Positions 16,035-20,923 of a stretch of 32,605 bases of DNA are shown one piece after another. Below the pieces are notes generated by a model, which made no database searches, was not told the DNA's origin, and saw only the letters and a program-made list of their open reading frames with translations. This stretch comes from Omnitrophica WOR_2 bacterium RIFCSPHIGHO2_02_FULL_50_17 (GTDB lineage: Bacteria > Omnitrophota > Gorgyraeia > Zapsychrales > Zapsychraceae). The translations under genes and the position numbers were made by a program. Within the stretch, counting starts at the first letter, position 1; every line of letters begins with the position of its first letter. The stretch spans positions 1-32,605 of the forward strand of contig MHGQ01000022.1 in the NCBI GenBank assembly GCA_001805645.1. Direction: 5' to 3'.

Positions 16035-17246
16035 TTAAAGGCTGGCAGCATCCGAAGGAAAAATAATACGGGCACGCGCACCGCCGGACGATCTATTTTC
16101 AATGAAAATAGTCCCATCGTGGCTTTCCATGATGCTTTTGGACACGGATAACCCCAACCCGACGCCGCCCATATCATGCTTGGTCGTAAAAAACGGATCG
16201 AATACCTTGCTTAAAGAGTCCGCGGGGATTCCCGTACCATTGTCTTCGATATCACAGACAACCACAGTCTGACCGGCCTTAAATTTTCTTTTATCCAAAA
16301 AGGAAAAATCCCCCGGCGCGCCGGAAAGCGCATGACTATAGGTCTTAAACTCCAGCTTCCCGCCTTCCCCAGCGGCCTGAACGGCATTCAACATCAAATT
16401 GATCAAAACCTGTTCAATCCTGTTTCTATCGATTGTTATCATGGGGATGGCCTGATCCAGTTTTTTGAAGACCTCAATATGCTTTTTCTCAATCTCATGG
16501 TGAATCAAAGACAGGCTTTTCTCGATAAGGGCGTTGAGGTCTTCCAATTTCCTGTCCAACTGAGGCGTGCTGGCGAAATTCAAGAGGTCATTGACCGTGC
16601 CGTTGGCCCTGTCGATAGCCTCTTTCATATTGGCCAACGCAGCCAGCACTTTATCGTCGGCCGGATTAAGCTGTTGGCGAAGGTAAGTCACGCCGTAAAG
16701 AATCGTAGCCAGGGGATTTTTGACCTCATGAGCAATCCCGCTCGCCAAGGCGCCAACGACCTTCATCTTTTCCATCTGCAAAAGCTGTGCCTGGGTCTCC
16801 TTGATCCTTTCATAAGCCTTCGTCAGCTCCCTCTCAAGGCGTTTGCGCTCCAAGGCATAATGAAGCGCCTTGTTGAGAACGTAAGCGGTGTATTTACCTT
16901 TGACAAGGAAGTCCTGGGCGCCGTAACTTAAGGTATGCAGACCCATCTCGTCTTCATAGGCGCCTGTATTGATGACGATGGCGACCTCAGGGTATTTGCT
17001 GCTTAAACGCACCAGTGTATCCTCGCCTTCACTGTCGGGAAGATTCATGTCCAGGACAACGATATCAAACTCATATTCATCGAGAAGTTTTATGGCGCCT
17101 TGAAGCGTATCCGTGCTTTTGCGTAAGGAAACGGCGCTGGAGGACTCCGAGAGCATGGATTCCAGCATCCTGCGGTCAATCTGATTATCCTCGACAATCA
17201 AGACCCTTAAGGGTTGGGTAAATGCTGCTGATGTCTTTTCGGCCAT
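16035..17246 (-). CDS. REC-histidine kinase hybrid (receiver first)
   Basis: A 403-residue cytosolic signalling protein with no membrane segment. The receiver domain comes first (about 12-130), with phospho-acceptor D66 in VVLDMNLPDSEG and the downstream conserved lysine K116. A coiled coil (about 132-160) follows, then a HisKA domain with H173 in GIAHEVKNPLA and a HATPase_c domain with the N box NLMLNAVQAA, DNGTGIP near 335-341 and GVGLGLSVSK near 361-370. The kinase would be controlled by phosphorylation of its own receiver, as in REC-PAS-HK phosphorelay middle proteins. No DNA-binding partner is in the window. There is no clear ribosome-binding site before the ATG. Confidence 0.93.
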   Translation of the reverse strand: MAEKTSAAFTQPLRVLIVEDNQIDRRMLESMLSESSSAVSLRKSTDTLQGAIKLLDEYEFDIVVLDMNLPDSEGEDTLVRLSSKYPEVAIVINTGAYEDEMGLHTLSYGAQDFLVKGKYTAYVLNKALHYALERKRLERELTKAYERIKETQAQLLQMEKMKVVGALASGIAHEVKNPLATILYGVTYLRQQLNPADDKVLAALANMKEAIDRANGTVNDLLNFASTPQLDRKLEDLNALIEKSLSLIHHEIEKKHIEVFKKLDQAIPMITIDRNRIEQVLINLMLNAVQAAGEGGKLEFKTYSHALSGAPGDFSFLDKRKFKAGQTVVVCDIEDNGTGIPADSLSKVFDPFFTTKHDMGGVGLGLSVSKSIMESHDGTIFIENRSSGGARARIIFPSDAASL

Positions 17247-17290
17247 ATATTGAAGAAAATGATACTATAAATCCCGACGATTGTCAAACA

Positions 17291-17305
17291 AGACCACGGG
17301 GCATG
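17291..17305. repeat. Left copy of 15-bp direct repeat
   Basis: AGACCACGGGGCATG at this position matches AGACCTCGGGGCATG at 18815-18829 in 14 of 15 bases. Both copies are preceded by GTCAA a few bases earlier. The two copies bracket the second ParA gene and its partner, and could be target-site or attachment-site duplications. Confidence 0.6.
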
Positions 17306-17307
17306 GG

Positions 17308-17343
17308 GCTACGGGTGCTACGGGTGCTACGGGTGCTACGGTT
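17308..17343. repeat. 9-bp tandem repeat (GCTACGGGT) overlapping a stop codon
   Basis: Three exact copies of GCTACGGGT (17308-17334) are followed by a partial fourth. The partial unit contains the stop codon of the neighbouring minus-strand gene. Read on that strand each unit is TAG CAC CCG, so the gene has tandem in-frame TAG stops whatever the copy number. It is a likely length-variable locus. Confidence 0.8.
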
Positions 17344-17830
17344 TCTCAGGAGATATGTCAGGATTAGTTTTTTCGATGTCTTGTTGGTTGTTTATTCTTT
17401 CGCGAAGGTTTGAAGTCGAAAGCATCATACTTTCACTGATCCGTCCTAACACACCGTTAAGGAGCACCTTTCTAGATGGTTTATTCTTCCCCACAGGCAC
17501 CCCCAACTCTCGAGAAAGAAAAGCCAGATCAGGCAAGCCCATAGTTTCTAATCGACGCTGCACTTCATCTTTCCTGCCTTCCTTGGCCATTTTGACAAGT
17601 TCATCATATATATTCAGAGCCTCTTGCGATGAAATCGTTGGGGGATTATTTATTTTAGGTACCGAAGTCCGGACACCTTGAGATGGCAAGCTTGGAAAAG
17701 CAGTAGGAAAAACTCGTTTGACGCGGCCTTCAATCTGTCCCAATTTTCTAGAAATTTCGCGAAGGATATCCTTCAATTCGCGAATCTCTTTCGCAAGTTC
17801 TCGTGTCTCTTCTTCAGGCGTACGAAACAT
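17336..17830 (-). CDS. Coiled-coil protein with Rho_N/SAP-like segment, ParA partner
   Basis: A 164-residue protein I do not recognise as a named family. Residues 5-37 are a charged heptad-like coiled coil. A Pro/Ser-rich linker spans about 41-66 and a helical stretch about 67-96. Then comes GLPDLAFLSRELGVPVGKNKPSRKVLL, which has the spacing of Rho_N/SAP-type helix-extended-loop nucleic-acid-binding motifs ('LxxLAxELGVxxxxKxxLL'). The tail is polar and ends inside a 9-bp tandem repeat. The start is well supported by GGAG 7 nt upstream, 11 bp after the ParA stop. It may be the DNA-binding or adaptor partner of that ParA; this is inference. Its base composition looks more AT-rich than the surroundings. 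Confidence 0.7.
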   Translation of the reverse strand: MFRTPEEETRELAKEIRELKDILREISRKLGQIEGRVKRVFPTAFPSLPSQGVRTSVPKINNPPTISSQEALNIYDELVKMAKEGRKDEVQRRLETMGLPDLAFLSRELGVPVGKNKPSRKVLLNGVLGRISESMMLSTSNLRERINNQQDIEKTNPDISPEKP

Positions 17831-17841
17831 CTAAATTCTCC

Positions 17842-18723
17842 TCATCCAAGAAATTCCACACATTCACGCCAGAGGTCCTGAAAATCTGAAATCATCTCTG
17901 GGGGCACTCCACCACCCGTGATGGCTCGTTTGATTCCTACACGTTCCCGTATATACGATTTGAAAAATCTAGCATCAATAGCCTGACTTTTGGCAGCCTC
18001 GTCACATACCTTCTGAACTTCACGCATATAAAACTGAACCTCTTTCGTGGGTGAATTCCCCCAGGTCTTGGCTTTATTCATAAAAATACCGATTTTAGGT
18101 AACGGATGTGGTTCAATCCGCAATCGTAAGGAATTAAGGATAAGCGCCACACCTCTAGATGCAAAGAAATCTGGGTTAACAGGAATGAGCACCAAATCGC
18201 AACAACTGAGCACGCTGTATGAAAGCAATGTAAAAGATGGGGGGCAATCGAAAAGCACAAAATCGTAAGGCGGTATTTGCCTGTTGTTGGAAATTTTTCC
18301 AAGCAGTCGCCCGATGAAACCCCTCACGCCATCACGGTCAAACACCTCAAGTTCCTGCCAATACAAGTCTTCGACGGACGGAATAAAATGAAAATTTTTG
18401 GTTATCTGATAAATGAAATCAAATCCTACTGGGAAATCGAAATGTGGCATAGGTTTCGTGAAGGCATCTAATGCATCAAAAATTGTCTTCTTTCGTTGAC
18501 GTGCTGTCTCGTACCACTTGCCGAAGCGTTCTTGTAAGAATCCCGTAGCTTCATTTAACGCAATAGCTTGCGTTAGGGACATCTGAGCATCCAGATCAAA
18601 CATTAATCCACGCATATTTGATGTCGAGGACAAAACATCCCCTAAGCACCAGGTGACAGTCGTTTTGCCGACACCCCCCTTGAAGTTAATCGTCGCAATT
18701 GTCTTGGGACTCTTATCGGGCAA
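17842..18723 (-). CDS. ParA/MinD-family ATPase of a repeat-flanked module
   Basis: A 293-residue deviant-Walker P-loop ATPase. The Walker A INFKGGVGKTT has signature lysine K15 and catalytic K20. Switch I is FDLDAQMSL near 42-50 and Walker B is FVLFDCPPS near 155-163, followed by LIPVNPDFFASRGVALIL. It is a two-domain-free ParA/Soj-type core, with no N-terminal HTH. The best start is TTG at 18723, with AAGGGGG 7 nt upstream; the first in-frame ATG lies after Walker A and would destroy the active site. It is followed by the 164-residue coiled-coil partner rather than a ParB. A 17-bp palindrome lies just upstream. It is not closely similar to the ParA-CBM48 at 19685-20923. Confidence 0.9.
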   Translation of the reverse strand: MPDKSPKTIATINFKGGVGKTTVTWCLGDVLSSTSNMRGLMFDLDAQMSLTQAIALNEATGFLQERFGKWYETARQRKKTIFDALDAFTKPMPHFDFPVGFDFIYQITKNFHFIPSVEDLYWQELEVFDRDGVRGFIGRLLGKISNNRQIPPYDFVLFDCPPSFTLLSYSVLSCCDLVLIPVNPDFFASRGVALILNSLRLRIEPHPLPKIGIFMNKAKTWGNSPTKEVQFYMREVQKVCDEAAKSQAIDARFFKSYIRERVGIKRAITGGGVPPEMISDFQDLWRECVEFLG

Positions 18724-18739
18724 CCTCGTACCCCCTTCT

Positions 18740-18756
18740 GCCTACGCTCCGTAGGC
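18740..18756. repeat. 17-bp palindrome upstream of ParA
   Basis: GCCTACG and CGTAGGC form perfect 7-bp arms with a CTC spacer, 17-33 bp before the TTG start of the ParA gene at 17842-18723. It could be an autoregulatory operator, a centromere-like site or a dispersed palindromic repeat. It does not resemble the Bacillus parS consensus. Confidence 0.55.
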
Positions 18757-18814
18757 CAACATTCTATTGCAAACCATTTTTATTTTAGCCGATAGGTGCG
18801 GAGAGTCAATGAAA

Positions 18815-18829
18815 AGACCTCGGGGCATG
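18815..18829. repeat. Right copy of 15-bp direct repeat
   Basis: AGACCTCGGGGCATG, one mismatch from the copy at 17291-17305. It sits 1 bp beyond the stop of the EF-Tu-domain-2-like gene, i.e. in the intergenic space that would have preceded the REC-kinase gene if the ParA module were absent. Confidence 0.6.
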
Positions 18830-18830
18830 T

Positions 18831-19352
18831 TTAGGGTAATTTGTAAACTTTATCCCCCACCCTGGCCTCTTGTTCCACCTTCAATCCTATGATCTGACCC
18901 TTACGGACCACCTTGACATCCACGCTCTCAATCTGCATCGAACGGACAGGCTGCGTGAAATCGGTTGTCTTGCCCTTGATCCGGACGCGGTCCCCCATCC
19001 GCATAGACCCTTTAAGCATCTTCACCACCACCACCTGAATCCTCGGAAAAAAATGAGTGATCTCCCCGACGACCTGATCCGAACGGACACCTTCCGAAAA
19101 AATTTCTTTCGATGGAACGGCCTGTTTCCTTGATTTGGGAAGGGAGGGTTTCCGCTTCAAAGAAGGCTTCTTGCCTGCACGTCTGGAGATTTTCTTCTTC
19201 CCGGCAACGGCCGCGGTTTTTTTCCGTCTTTGAACTGTTCTGCGGCGGGAAACCGCCCCTGTGACTTTCTTCCGGCCTTTTCGTCCTGACGCCTTCTTCT
19301 TAAACTTAAACAATCTCTTAAGGGAGGTTAAAATCTTCTTCAATGCGGCCAT
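18831..19352 (-). CDS. EF-Tu domain-2-like protein with basic N-terminal tail
   Basis: A 173-residue protein in two parts. Residues 1-82 are dominated by Lys and Arg with Ala, Ser and Pro, resembling histone-H1-like or ribosomal-protein tails. Residues about 90-173 form a beta-barrel of the translation-factor domain 2 type: QVVGEITHFFPRIQVVVV, GDRVRIKGKTTDFTQPVRSMQIE, then KGQIIGLKVEQEARVGDKVYKL. Small stand-alone proteins of this kind are annotated as 'translation elongation factor-like'. No G domain is present, so it is not a GTPase. The basic tail suggests binding to RNA, DNA or the ribosome. The ATG lacks a clear ribosome-binding site. Confidence 0.75.
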   Translation of the reverse strand: MAALKKILTSLKRLFKFKKKASGRKGRKKVTGAVSRRRTVQRRKKTAAVAGKKKISRRAGKKPSLKRKPSLPKSRKQAVPSKEIFSEGVRSDQVVGEITHFFPRIQVVVVKMLKGSMRMGDRVRIKGKTTDFTQPVRSMQIESVDVKVVRKGQIIGLKVEQEARVGDKVYKLP

Positions 19353-19386: not shown

Positions 19387-19707
19387 TTACAGGGTTATCT
19401 TGTCGGCGATATCGGCAATCCCAGGCAGCTTCACGTAACGCCCCCTTAAGACAGCGATAATCCCCAGGAAAGAAAAGATGCCGAAGACGAATATCCCCAG
19501 CCGGAATATCCACGGGCCCAGGATAATGTGGACGATAAAGACGGCCACCTCGCCTAAAAAGATCACAAGCCCCTGCTTGCCGTGCTGGAGGACAAAGGCA
19601 TTTTCCTTCTTAAAAAGCAACGGAAGGATGCACAGAATAGAAAGGTAAGACAAGAGGGCGAATATTTTGCCTTCCAGGATTTCTTCACTGCGCCGCGGGC
19701 TGGTCAT
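19387..19707 (-). CDS. Tic20-like/DUF4870 membrane protein
   Basis: A 106-residue membrane protein with about three hydrophobic segments (about 13-32, 43-64 and 66-86). The opening EGKIFALLSYLSILCILPLL and the FVLQHGKQGLVIFLGEV segment are typical of the DUF4870/Tic20-like family, whose function in bacteria is unknown. The ATG lies 23 bp inside the 3' end of the ParA-CBM48 gene, with GAGG about 9 nt upstream, so expression is coupled to it. It is a candidate membrane anchor for that protein. Confidence 0.8.
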   Translation of the reverse strand: MTSPRRSEEILEGKIFALLSYLSILCILPLLFKKENAFVLQHGKQGLVIFLGEVAVFIVHIILGPWIFRLGIFVFGIFSFLGIIAVLRGRYVKLPGIADIADKITL

Positions 19708-20923
19708 CGGATTTTACCTCAAGGAGCGAATTGATATCGCCGAAGGAATTGCGCTCTCTTCTTTTGTTCTTCGGATCCTCTCTCCAGACGCCGTCGACAA
19801 TGAACTGATATTTATAAAGCCCCGGTTTTAGAGGAATAACGGTCTCCCATCTGCCGTCAACGGCCTTCAGACGACAGCTATCGTCTAGAGACCAATCGTT
19901 GAAACTGCCCGTGACAAAGACGGATTTGGCATCCGGCGCCTCGTACGTAAAGCGGGTGAAGAAAACCTCTTTGACCTGCCTGGCCTCTTCCTGGATGATT
20001 TCCTGCATCTTGTCCGAGAAGGGGCGGGCAGTCTGCTCCTGTGCCGCCTGCTCCTTTTGAGAGAGGGCTTGTGCGTCGGCTGTTTCTCCCCCCTCCCCCG
20101 CGGCCTCGAGGGCTGTTTCCTCTTGGGTTGCTGCCTGCGGCGGCTCAATGGCATCCGGCGAGGGATGGCCCTCGGCCCACATAATCTCCTTGGATAACGT
20201 AAAATAATCCTTGGCCCCCCGGCTGTATTTATCGTAAAGGGCCACGGTCTGCCCCATCACGGCGGACTCCTTCAATTTGACATTGACATGGACGATCGTA
20301 TCAAAAAGCAGTTCCCCGAAGCGCTCCCTAAACGTCTCCAGCATGGCAAAGGAATGCCGCAGGCGCGAATCGAACATGGTGATCAGCACGCGGCAGGCGA
20401 TTGTATGGCCGAGGCGGTCTTTGACCAGATGGACGATATCCAAAAGGTGTTCCACCCCCTGGATGGAAAAGCGGCTTGTCTCGACGGGAATAATCAATTC
20501 CGTGCTCGCCCGAAGGGCATTGACCGTCAAGATGCCTAGGCTCGGGGCGCAGTCAATCAGGACATAATCATACCTGTCCTTAAGCGATGCCATCACCTCC
20601 AAGAGCTTGAGCTCGCGGCCTATTTCATCGGCCAGCTCCTGCTCCAGGGTGCCGACGAGGATATTGGACGGCACGATGTCAAAGCTGCCCTCCACGCGCT
20701 TGATGATATTCTCGATCCTTAACTTGCGCGGGGTCAGCTTGGAAATAACATTGTAGATGCTGTCCTGACCTTCGATATTCAACCCTAAGGAGGCGTGCGC
20801 CTGAGGATCCAGATCAATCAAAAGAACCCTGCGTCCGCCTTTGCCCAGGGCCGAGGCCAGGTTGATAGCGGTGGTCGTCTTGCCGCAGCCCCCCTTCTGA
20901 TTGCCGATGGAAATTATTCTCAT
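19685..20923 (-). CDS. ParA-family ATPase fused to CBM48 glycogen-binding domain
   Basis: A 412-residue fusion. Residues 1-250 are a complete ParA/Soj ATPase: Walker A GNQKGGCGKTTTA with signature K10 and catalytic K15, LIDLDPQAHASLG near 35-47, and Walker B YVLIDCAPSLG near 120-130. It closes with the ParA-typical FDTIVHVNVKLKESAVMGQTVALY. A flexible Ala/Glu/Gln-rich linker runs about 251-305. Residues about 320-402 are an AMPK/CBM48-type E-set glycogen-binding domain: KSVFVTGSFNDWS, GRWETVIPLKPGLYKYQFIVDGVWREDP, with aromatic residues W344, W359 and W380 suited to glucan binding. Neighbours are two small membrane proteins, one on each side. Glucan-tethered positioning, for example of glycogen granules, is a reasonable hypothesis. 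No ParB is adjacent. Confidence 0.93.
   Translation of the reverse strand: MRIISIGNQKGGCGKTTTAINLASALGKGGRRVLLIDLDPQAHASLGLNIEGQDSIYNVISKLTPRKLRIENIIKRVEGSFDIVPSNILVGTLEQELADEIGRELKLLEVMASLKDRYDYVLIDCAPSLGILTVNALRASTELIIPVETSRFSIQGVEHLLDIVHLVKDRLGHTIACRVLITMFDSRLRHSFAMLETFRERFGELLFDTIVHVNVKLKESAVMGQTVALYDKYSRGAKDYFTLSKEIMWAEGHPSPDAIEPPQAATQEETALEAAGEGGETADAQALSQKEQAAQEQTARPFSDKMQEIIQEEARQVKEVFFTRFTYEAPDAKSVFVTGSFNDWSLDDSCRLKAVDGRWETVIPLKPGLYKYQFIVDGVWREDPKNKRRERNSFGDINSLLEVKSDDQPAAQ

Follow-up and report, generated by a model that had tools for sequence, protein, structure and literature searches.

ParA-type ATPases are known movers of DNA and organelles. In the stretch of DNA analysed here (hereafter the window, 32,605 nucleotides of an Omnitrophica WOR_2 bacterium), a gene for such an ATPase and a gene for a small coiled-coil protein lie between two resident genes and are bracketed by a short direct repeat. 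How did this pair of genes come to its place, and what could it do there? An earlier note on this DNA had seen in it the insertion of a small mobile or cassette-like module. The genes concerned are the following:

16035–17246, minus strand: resident flanking gene, REC domain and histidine kinase; adjoins the EF-Tu-domain-2-like gene in relatives
17336–17830, minus strand: partner protein of the pair, 164 aa, with a coiled coil and a compact helical region
17842–18723, minus strand: ParA-type deviant Walker A ATPase, first gene of the pair, 293 aa, TTG start, KGGVGKTT and FDCPPS motifs
18831–19352, minus strand: resident flanking gene, EF-Tu-domain-2-like, weak Pfam match; present in 46 of 55 genomes

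The product of the first gene is a member of the ParA/MinD-type ATPase superfamily. It matches the Pfam AAA_31 (3.9e-28) and PHROG ParA (1.4e-36) profiles, and the best Foldseek matches of its structural model are McdA and Soj (E about 1e-11), with McdA 6non on top. The ParA motifs, among them the deviant Walker A (KGGVGKTT) and Walker B, are invariant in all 11 members of the family described below, and the ParA fold is present as well. The AF2 model of the partner (pLDDT 81) has an N-terminal helix at about residues 5–40, which corresponds to the coiled coil, followed by a disordered linker, a compact region at about 68–137 with three helices and a long C-terminal helix. Residues 99–132 or so resemble SAP/Rho_N motifs, and the helices of the model fit the motif. 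The SAP and Rho_N profile matches are weak; each is found in 2 of the 11 partner members (best E 0.007 and 0.01, respectively). A fold search with the partner gave no significant match, and its PDB matches were rejected as generic coiled coils or chance similarity. No structured RNA from Rfam was found at the locus.

Related genomes show what the locus looks like when the pair is missing. According to the earlier note, removal of the module would leave the EF-Tu-domain-2-like gene directly upstream of the REC-kinase gene, and exactly this arrangement is present in four relatives (L014, L015, L016 and L021), where the two genes are separated by a spacer of about 50–95 bp. These relatives belong to the same family and to a different genus; there was no same-genus genome among those searched. 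The promoter of the kinase gene (TTTGACA...TATTAT/TATCAT) has the same position in the relatives as in the window. Because both this promoter and the gene order are kept, the insertion point can be placed between the stop codon of the EF-Tu-domain-2-like gene and the −35 box of the kinase gene. Both copies of the repeat sit exactly at the insertion junctions. The intergenic spacers of the four relatives, which are of another genus, do not contain the 15-mer; the comparison with relatives proposed earlier has given the empty arrangement, but an empty site with one repeat copy was not seen among them. Relatives that carry the pair at the same place without the repeats, which would have spoken against an insertion, do not occur. 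None of the 80 other genomes of the order that were searched has the ParA of the pair, and no further member of the pair was found in 364 genomes of the same class. A search for the partner in 384 genomes of the phylum gave two weak matches only, both inside longer open frames (908 and 447 aa).

The composition of the pair differs from that of its surroundings. Its GC content is 0.44 as compared to 0.48–0.55 in ten flanking genes, GC3 is 0.39 and 0.44 in the two genes as compared to 0.58–0.70, and with the window genes as the only codon-usage reference, these two genes alone have negative scores against their neighbours. The impression that the pair is more AT-rich than the genes around it is thus borne out by GC content and GC3. 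The pair was inserted as a clean unit of about 1.5 kb between two resident genes, and the empty relatives, the absence in the order and the alien composition support this.

The resident neighbours deserve a separate remark. Close to the insertion site, at 19685–20923 on the minus strand, the window has another ParA-type ATPase, which ends in a fused AMPK1_CBM glycogen-binding domain at the C terminus. Five relatives were confirmed to have the same fusion, and no description of it came up in a search of papers; such a protein could position glycogen granules. The ATPase gene adjoins the EF-Tu-domain-2-like gene in most relatives. The latter gene (18831–19352, minus strand) encodes a stand-alone EF-Tu-domain-2-like protein whose N-terminal region is long and basic.

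The edges of the insertion contain several short elements:

17259–17287, minus strand: promoter-like site of the REC-kinase gene, TTGACA-17-TATCAT; conserved in relatives, on the host side of the junction
17291–17305, plus strand: repeat copy AGACCACGGGGCATG, REC-kinase side of the insertion
17308–17341, plus strand: perfect 9-bp tandem array of GCTACGGGT, 3.8 copies; holds the partner stop codon
18740–18756, minus strand: perfect hairpin GCCTACG-GAG-CGTAGGC within the ParA leader; occurs once in the genome
18782–18809, minus strand: promoter-like site of the pair, TTGACT-16-TAAAAT, a consensus match only; immediately inside the repeat
18815–18829, plus strand: repeat copy AGACCTCGGGGCATG, EF-Tu-domain-2 side of the insertion

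Both 15-mers are located where the earlier note had put them. On the coding strand the copies read CATGCCCCGAGGTCTT and CATGCCCCGTGGTCTT, matching over 16 bp with one mismatch, and their consensus is CATGCCCCG(A/T)GGTCTT. In 3000 simulations with intergenic segments as long as the observed ones this match score was never reached, hence the repeat is above chance. The GTCAA seen beside each copy is present and corresponds, on the opposite strand, to the −35 hexamer of a promoter-like site. In the 1.92-Mb genome the exact copies are those at 17291 and 18815 only, so the 15-mer is not common throughout the genome, which would have spoken against an insertion. Six further sites have two mismatches and none has fewer; together with the two repeat copies this makes 8 sites at up to two mismatches, about as many as the 6.5 that chance would give. 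The array, on which the earlier note was silent, reads CCGTAGCAC 3.8 times on the coding strand and ends beside the right-hand repeat copy (17291–17305). Since its unit contains the stop codon of the partner gene, the end of the partner is embedded in a slippage-prone repeat. The hexamer CTACGG is common to the array and the leader hairpin. The sole near match to the array elsewhere in the genome is an unrelated sequence on another contig. A dispersed repeat family was rejected, since neither the 15-mer, the hairpin nor the array has another exact copy in the genome.

Outside the phylum the pair has relatives. A scan of about 85,000 genomes revealed ten ParA orthologues that are 45–76% identical to the window protein, while nearly all other ParA matches in that scan had about 35% identity or lower. 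The orthologous loci come from Terriglobia (L073), Desulfobacterales (L074), Bradyrhizobium (L075), Proteobacteria (L076), Beijerinckiaceae (L077), Binatia (L078), Rokuibacteriota (L079), KSB1 (L080), Nitrospinota (L081) and Dehalococcoidia (L082), that is from about eight phyla (Acidobacteriota, Thermodesulfobacteriota, Pseudomonadota, Binatota, Rokuibacteriota, KSB1, Nitrospinota and Chloroflexota). A homologue of the partner lies directly downstream of ParA in all 11 loci, the window included, often with a 4-bp overlap, and it is far less conserved than ParA (17–41% identity). None of the more distant ParA loci examined (L083–L119) has it. Since the partner accompanies every orthologous ParA and none of the more distant ones, the two genes are a co-inherited unit. 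In the tree the neighbour of the window protein is, at modest support, the acidobacterial member; the two alphaproteobacterial members group together. GC content of the pair is below that of the flanks in 11 of 11 loci (sign test p 0.0005), and the pair is a single copy in the host and in all seven homologue genomes tested. Together with the scattered and very rare distribution, this indicates horizontal transfer. Shown by the analysis are the conservation of the operon across distant phyla, its insertion in the window, its alien composition and the enrichment for defence genes described next. We regard the pair as a true operon family of its own, rare and spread by horizontal transfer.

Regarding the neighbours of the pair, genes of defence systems are found at several of these loci. 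In Bradyrhizobium a GmrSD-family gene that scores as NsnA/PD-T4-2_A and a HEPN gene are located next to the pair. The proteobacterial locus has DndB and a PC4-like gene upstream (L076:1-725) and a type IIG restriction enzyme (E 2.5e-298) 24 bp downstream. IetAS is the neighbour in Beijerinckiaceae, and in Terriglobia these are a DUF1156-type DNA methylase and an Mrr_N protein. The Rokuibacteriota locus has PDC-S11 upstream and, by reading of the translation only, a DNA-methylase-like fragment downstream. This fragment (L079:6442-6648), which immediately follows the pair, resembles the C-terminal part of an N6/N4 DNA methylase (DPFMGSGTT motif), and no N-terminal part is seen on this short contig. 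A sixth locus, that of KSB1, has a toxin–antitoxin pair, BrnT with a CopG antitoxin. GmrSD/HEPN in Bradyrhizobium, type IIG in the proteobacterium and BrnT in KSB1 follow the pair immediately and are encoded on its strand. When PADLOC matches at E below 1e-15 are counted, 5 of the 10 homologous loci and 7 of their 49 ORFs score, as compared to one of 20 control regions and one of 116 ORFs, the latter encoding a UvrD-like helicase. Fisher tests gave p 0.009 for the loci and p 0.0009 for the ORFs, in a small sample whose control regions were drawn from three of the same contigs (three genomes only). The window and four other loci (L074, L078, L081 and L082) have no defence neighbour and are surrounded by housekeeping or unassigned genes only. 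Because the neighbouring defence genes differ in kind, the pair may merely share island hot spots with them.

Similar combinations of proteins have been described. McdA–McdB, which positions carboxysomes, also consists of a ParA-type ATPase and a small partner; however, there are no carboxysome genes near the pair and no sequence relation between the partners was detected. In ICEclc, ParA and a small partner, Shi, act by growth arrest and not by partition, and ParB is not needed (PMC6812849). Like our pair, ParA–Shi combines a ParA with a small partner whose gene overlaps, and it is located on DNA that moves horizontally, but Shi, the product of a 258-bp ORF, is HicA-like, parB follows, and the system is part of an ICE (PMC6812849). 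With the defence systems of PADLOC (IetAS, PD-T4-2, NsnA and others) the pair has in common its neighbourhoods and a patchy horizontal distribution, whereas no PADLOC model covers its ParA or its partner at a meaningful score. A search of openly licensed papers did not reveal a ParA defence pair.

Several explanations can be considered for the repeat and for the pair itself. The two 15-mers could be no trace of an insertion but a regulatory site that two promoters have in common, either an operator or a weak terminator ahead of them. There is indeed a −35 hexamer 2–4 bp downstream of each copy, and the right copy resembles a terminator, but the spacing to the −35 hexamer differs by 2 bp between the copies, the motif is missing from the REC-kinase promoters of the relatives and no exact copy exists anywhere else in the genome, which makes this reading very improbable. 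Hardly more probable is a small mobile or cassette-like element. Its recombinase would have acted in trans, and the 15/16-bp repeat would be its target duplication or its attachment sites. The above-chance repeat exactly at both junctions and the clean insertion, about 1.5 kb long, would fit such an element. Against it, none of the ten other loci has a flanking direct repeat above chance or a terminal sequence common to the family, no recombinase is found with the pair, and the pair is a single copy in the tested genomes. A target duplication common to the family was rejected, as the repeat occurs only at the window locus. In Bradyrhizobium the pair travels inside a larger block of 3.3 kb (L075:5857-9159; ParA, partner, GmrSD-like and HEPN genes), which sits between thiC and a uracil-DNA-glycosylase gene and is carried by a single strain. 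This interval is a variable spot where related species hold other sequence, and the pair is in none of 29 close loci examined there. Single copies and the lack of shared ends, of a recombinase and of the repeat elsewhere thus point to a horizontally transferred pair and do not show a self-mobile cassette: own or shared ends and a consistent target duplication at several copies were not found. Of the earlier proposal, then, the insertion is supported and the mobile or cassette nature is not, given the lack of family-wide repeats, ends and extra copies. The repeat may have arisen as a target duplication, as an attachment site or in a single microhomology event.

Another explanation is a stranded plasmid-type partition module, i.e. 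ParA with a ParB-like adaptor left behind after integration of a plasmid or island, the array and the hairpin being the remnant of its centromere. The pair has in common with ParA/Soj and with the plasmid ParA proteins that work with ParB the ATPase fold, the deviant Walker A and Walker B motifs and the two-gene operon; the nearest relatives of its ParA are ATPases that segregate plasmids and chromosomes, and iterated 9-bp repeats flank the pair, with CTACGG recurring in the leader hairpin. Yet the array is unique to the window member (0 of 10 other loci), and a centromere common to the family was rejected for this reason; nor is there a consistent parS. The partner, a coiled coil with a weakly SAP/Rho_N-like region, is unlike any known ParB, and no ParB, HTH or RHH family was among the matches listed for the partner members. 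The genes seen beside the pair include none for replication or mobilisation. Among 72,556 plasmid and 50,697 phage records there was no orthologue-level ParA match (about 25–33% identity only) and in viral contigs no match at all, so a viral or plasmid origin of the orthologues is unsupported. Such low-identity matches, and their absence from viral contigs, argue against replicon partition, and we regard this explanation as unlikely. Somewhat better, if still on the unlikely side, are the prospects of an ordinary horizontal transfer by illegitimate or microhomology-mediated recombination, with the repeat as a one-off and the pair as a generic McdAB-like positioning system of unknown cargo with no role in defence. 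The repeat being unique to the window locus, McdA as the top fold match, and the small partners typical of ParA positioning systems in the literature all agree with it, but it leaves the excess of defence neighbours unexplained and no common cargo gene adjoins the pair.

The reading that we put forward, as an even call, is that the pair is a ParA-type ATPase with its adaptor that serves as a defence-associated accessory or stand-alone module against invading DNA and not in replicon partition. We infer the defence role from the neighbourhood, from the patchy distribution and from the fact that plasmids and phages carry no close relatives. The pair entered by a single insertion between the EF-Tu-domain-2-like and REC-kinase genes, at a point shortly before the promoter of the kinase gene. 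If it works like other ParA systems, ATP-bound ParA dimers may coat the nucleoid, the partner, dimerised via its coiled coil, would contact ParA and lead to ATP hydrolysis, and its SAP/Rho_N-like C-terminal region could bind DNA or a cargo. The module might then act by positioning, or by growth arrest like ParA–Shi of ICEclc. In the host of the window the pair has no adjacent effector. It is rather doubtful, although conceivable, that the pair is an undescribed anti-invader system in which a ParA patrols the nucleoid and its coiled-coil, SAP-like partner senses foreign DNA or its replication. Such a system would act alone in some hosts, while in others it would be the front end of exchangeable effectors, namely the GmrSD/HEPN, type IIG and BrnT genes that follow the pair in Bradyrhizobium, the proteobacterium and KSB1.

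What is new here is a conserved, horizontally spread ParA–partner operon and its link to defence loci. The pair is compact (1.4 kb) and may be a little-known travelling defence-linked module. If our reading is true, a self-contained, phylum-crossing ParA–partner operon among restriction and toxin genes would tie the ParA machinery to immunity or genome conflict.
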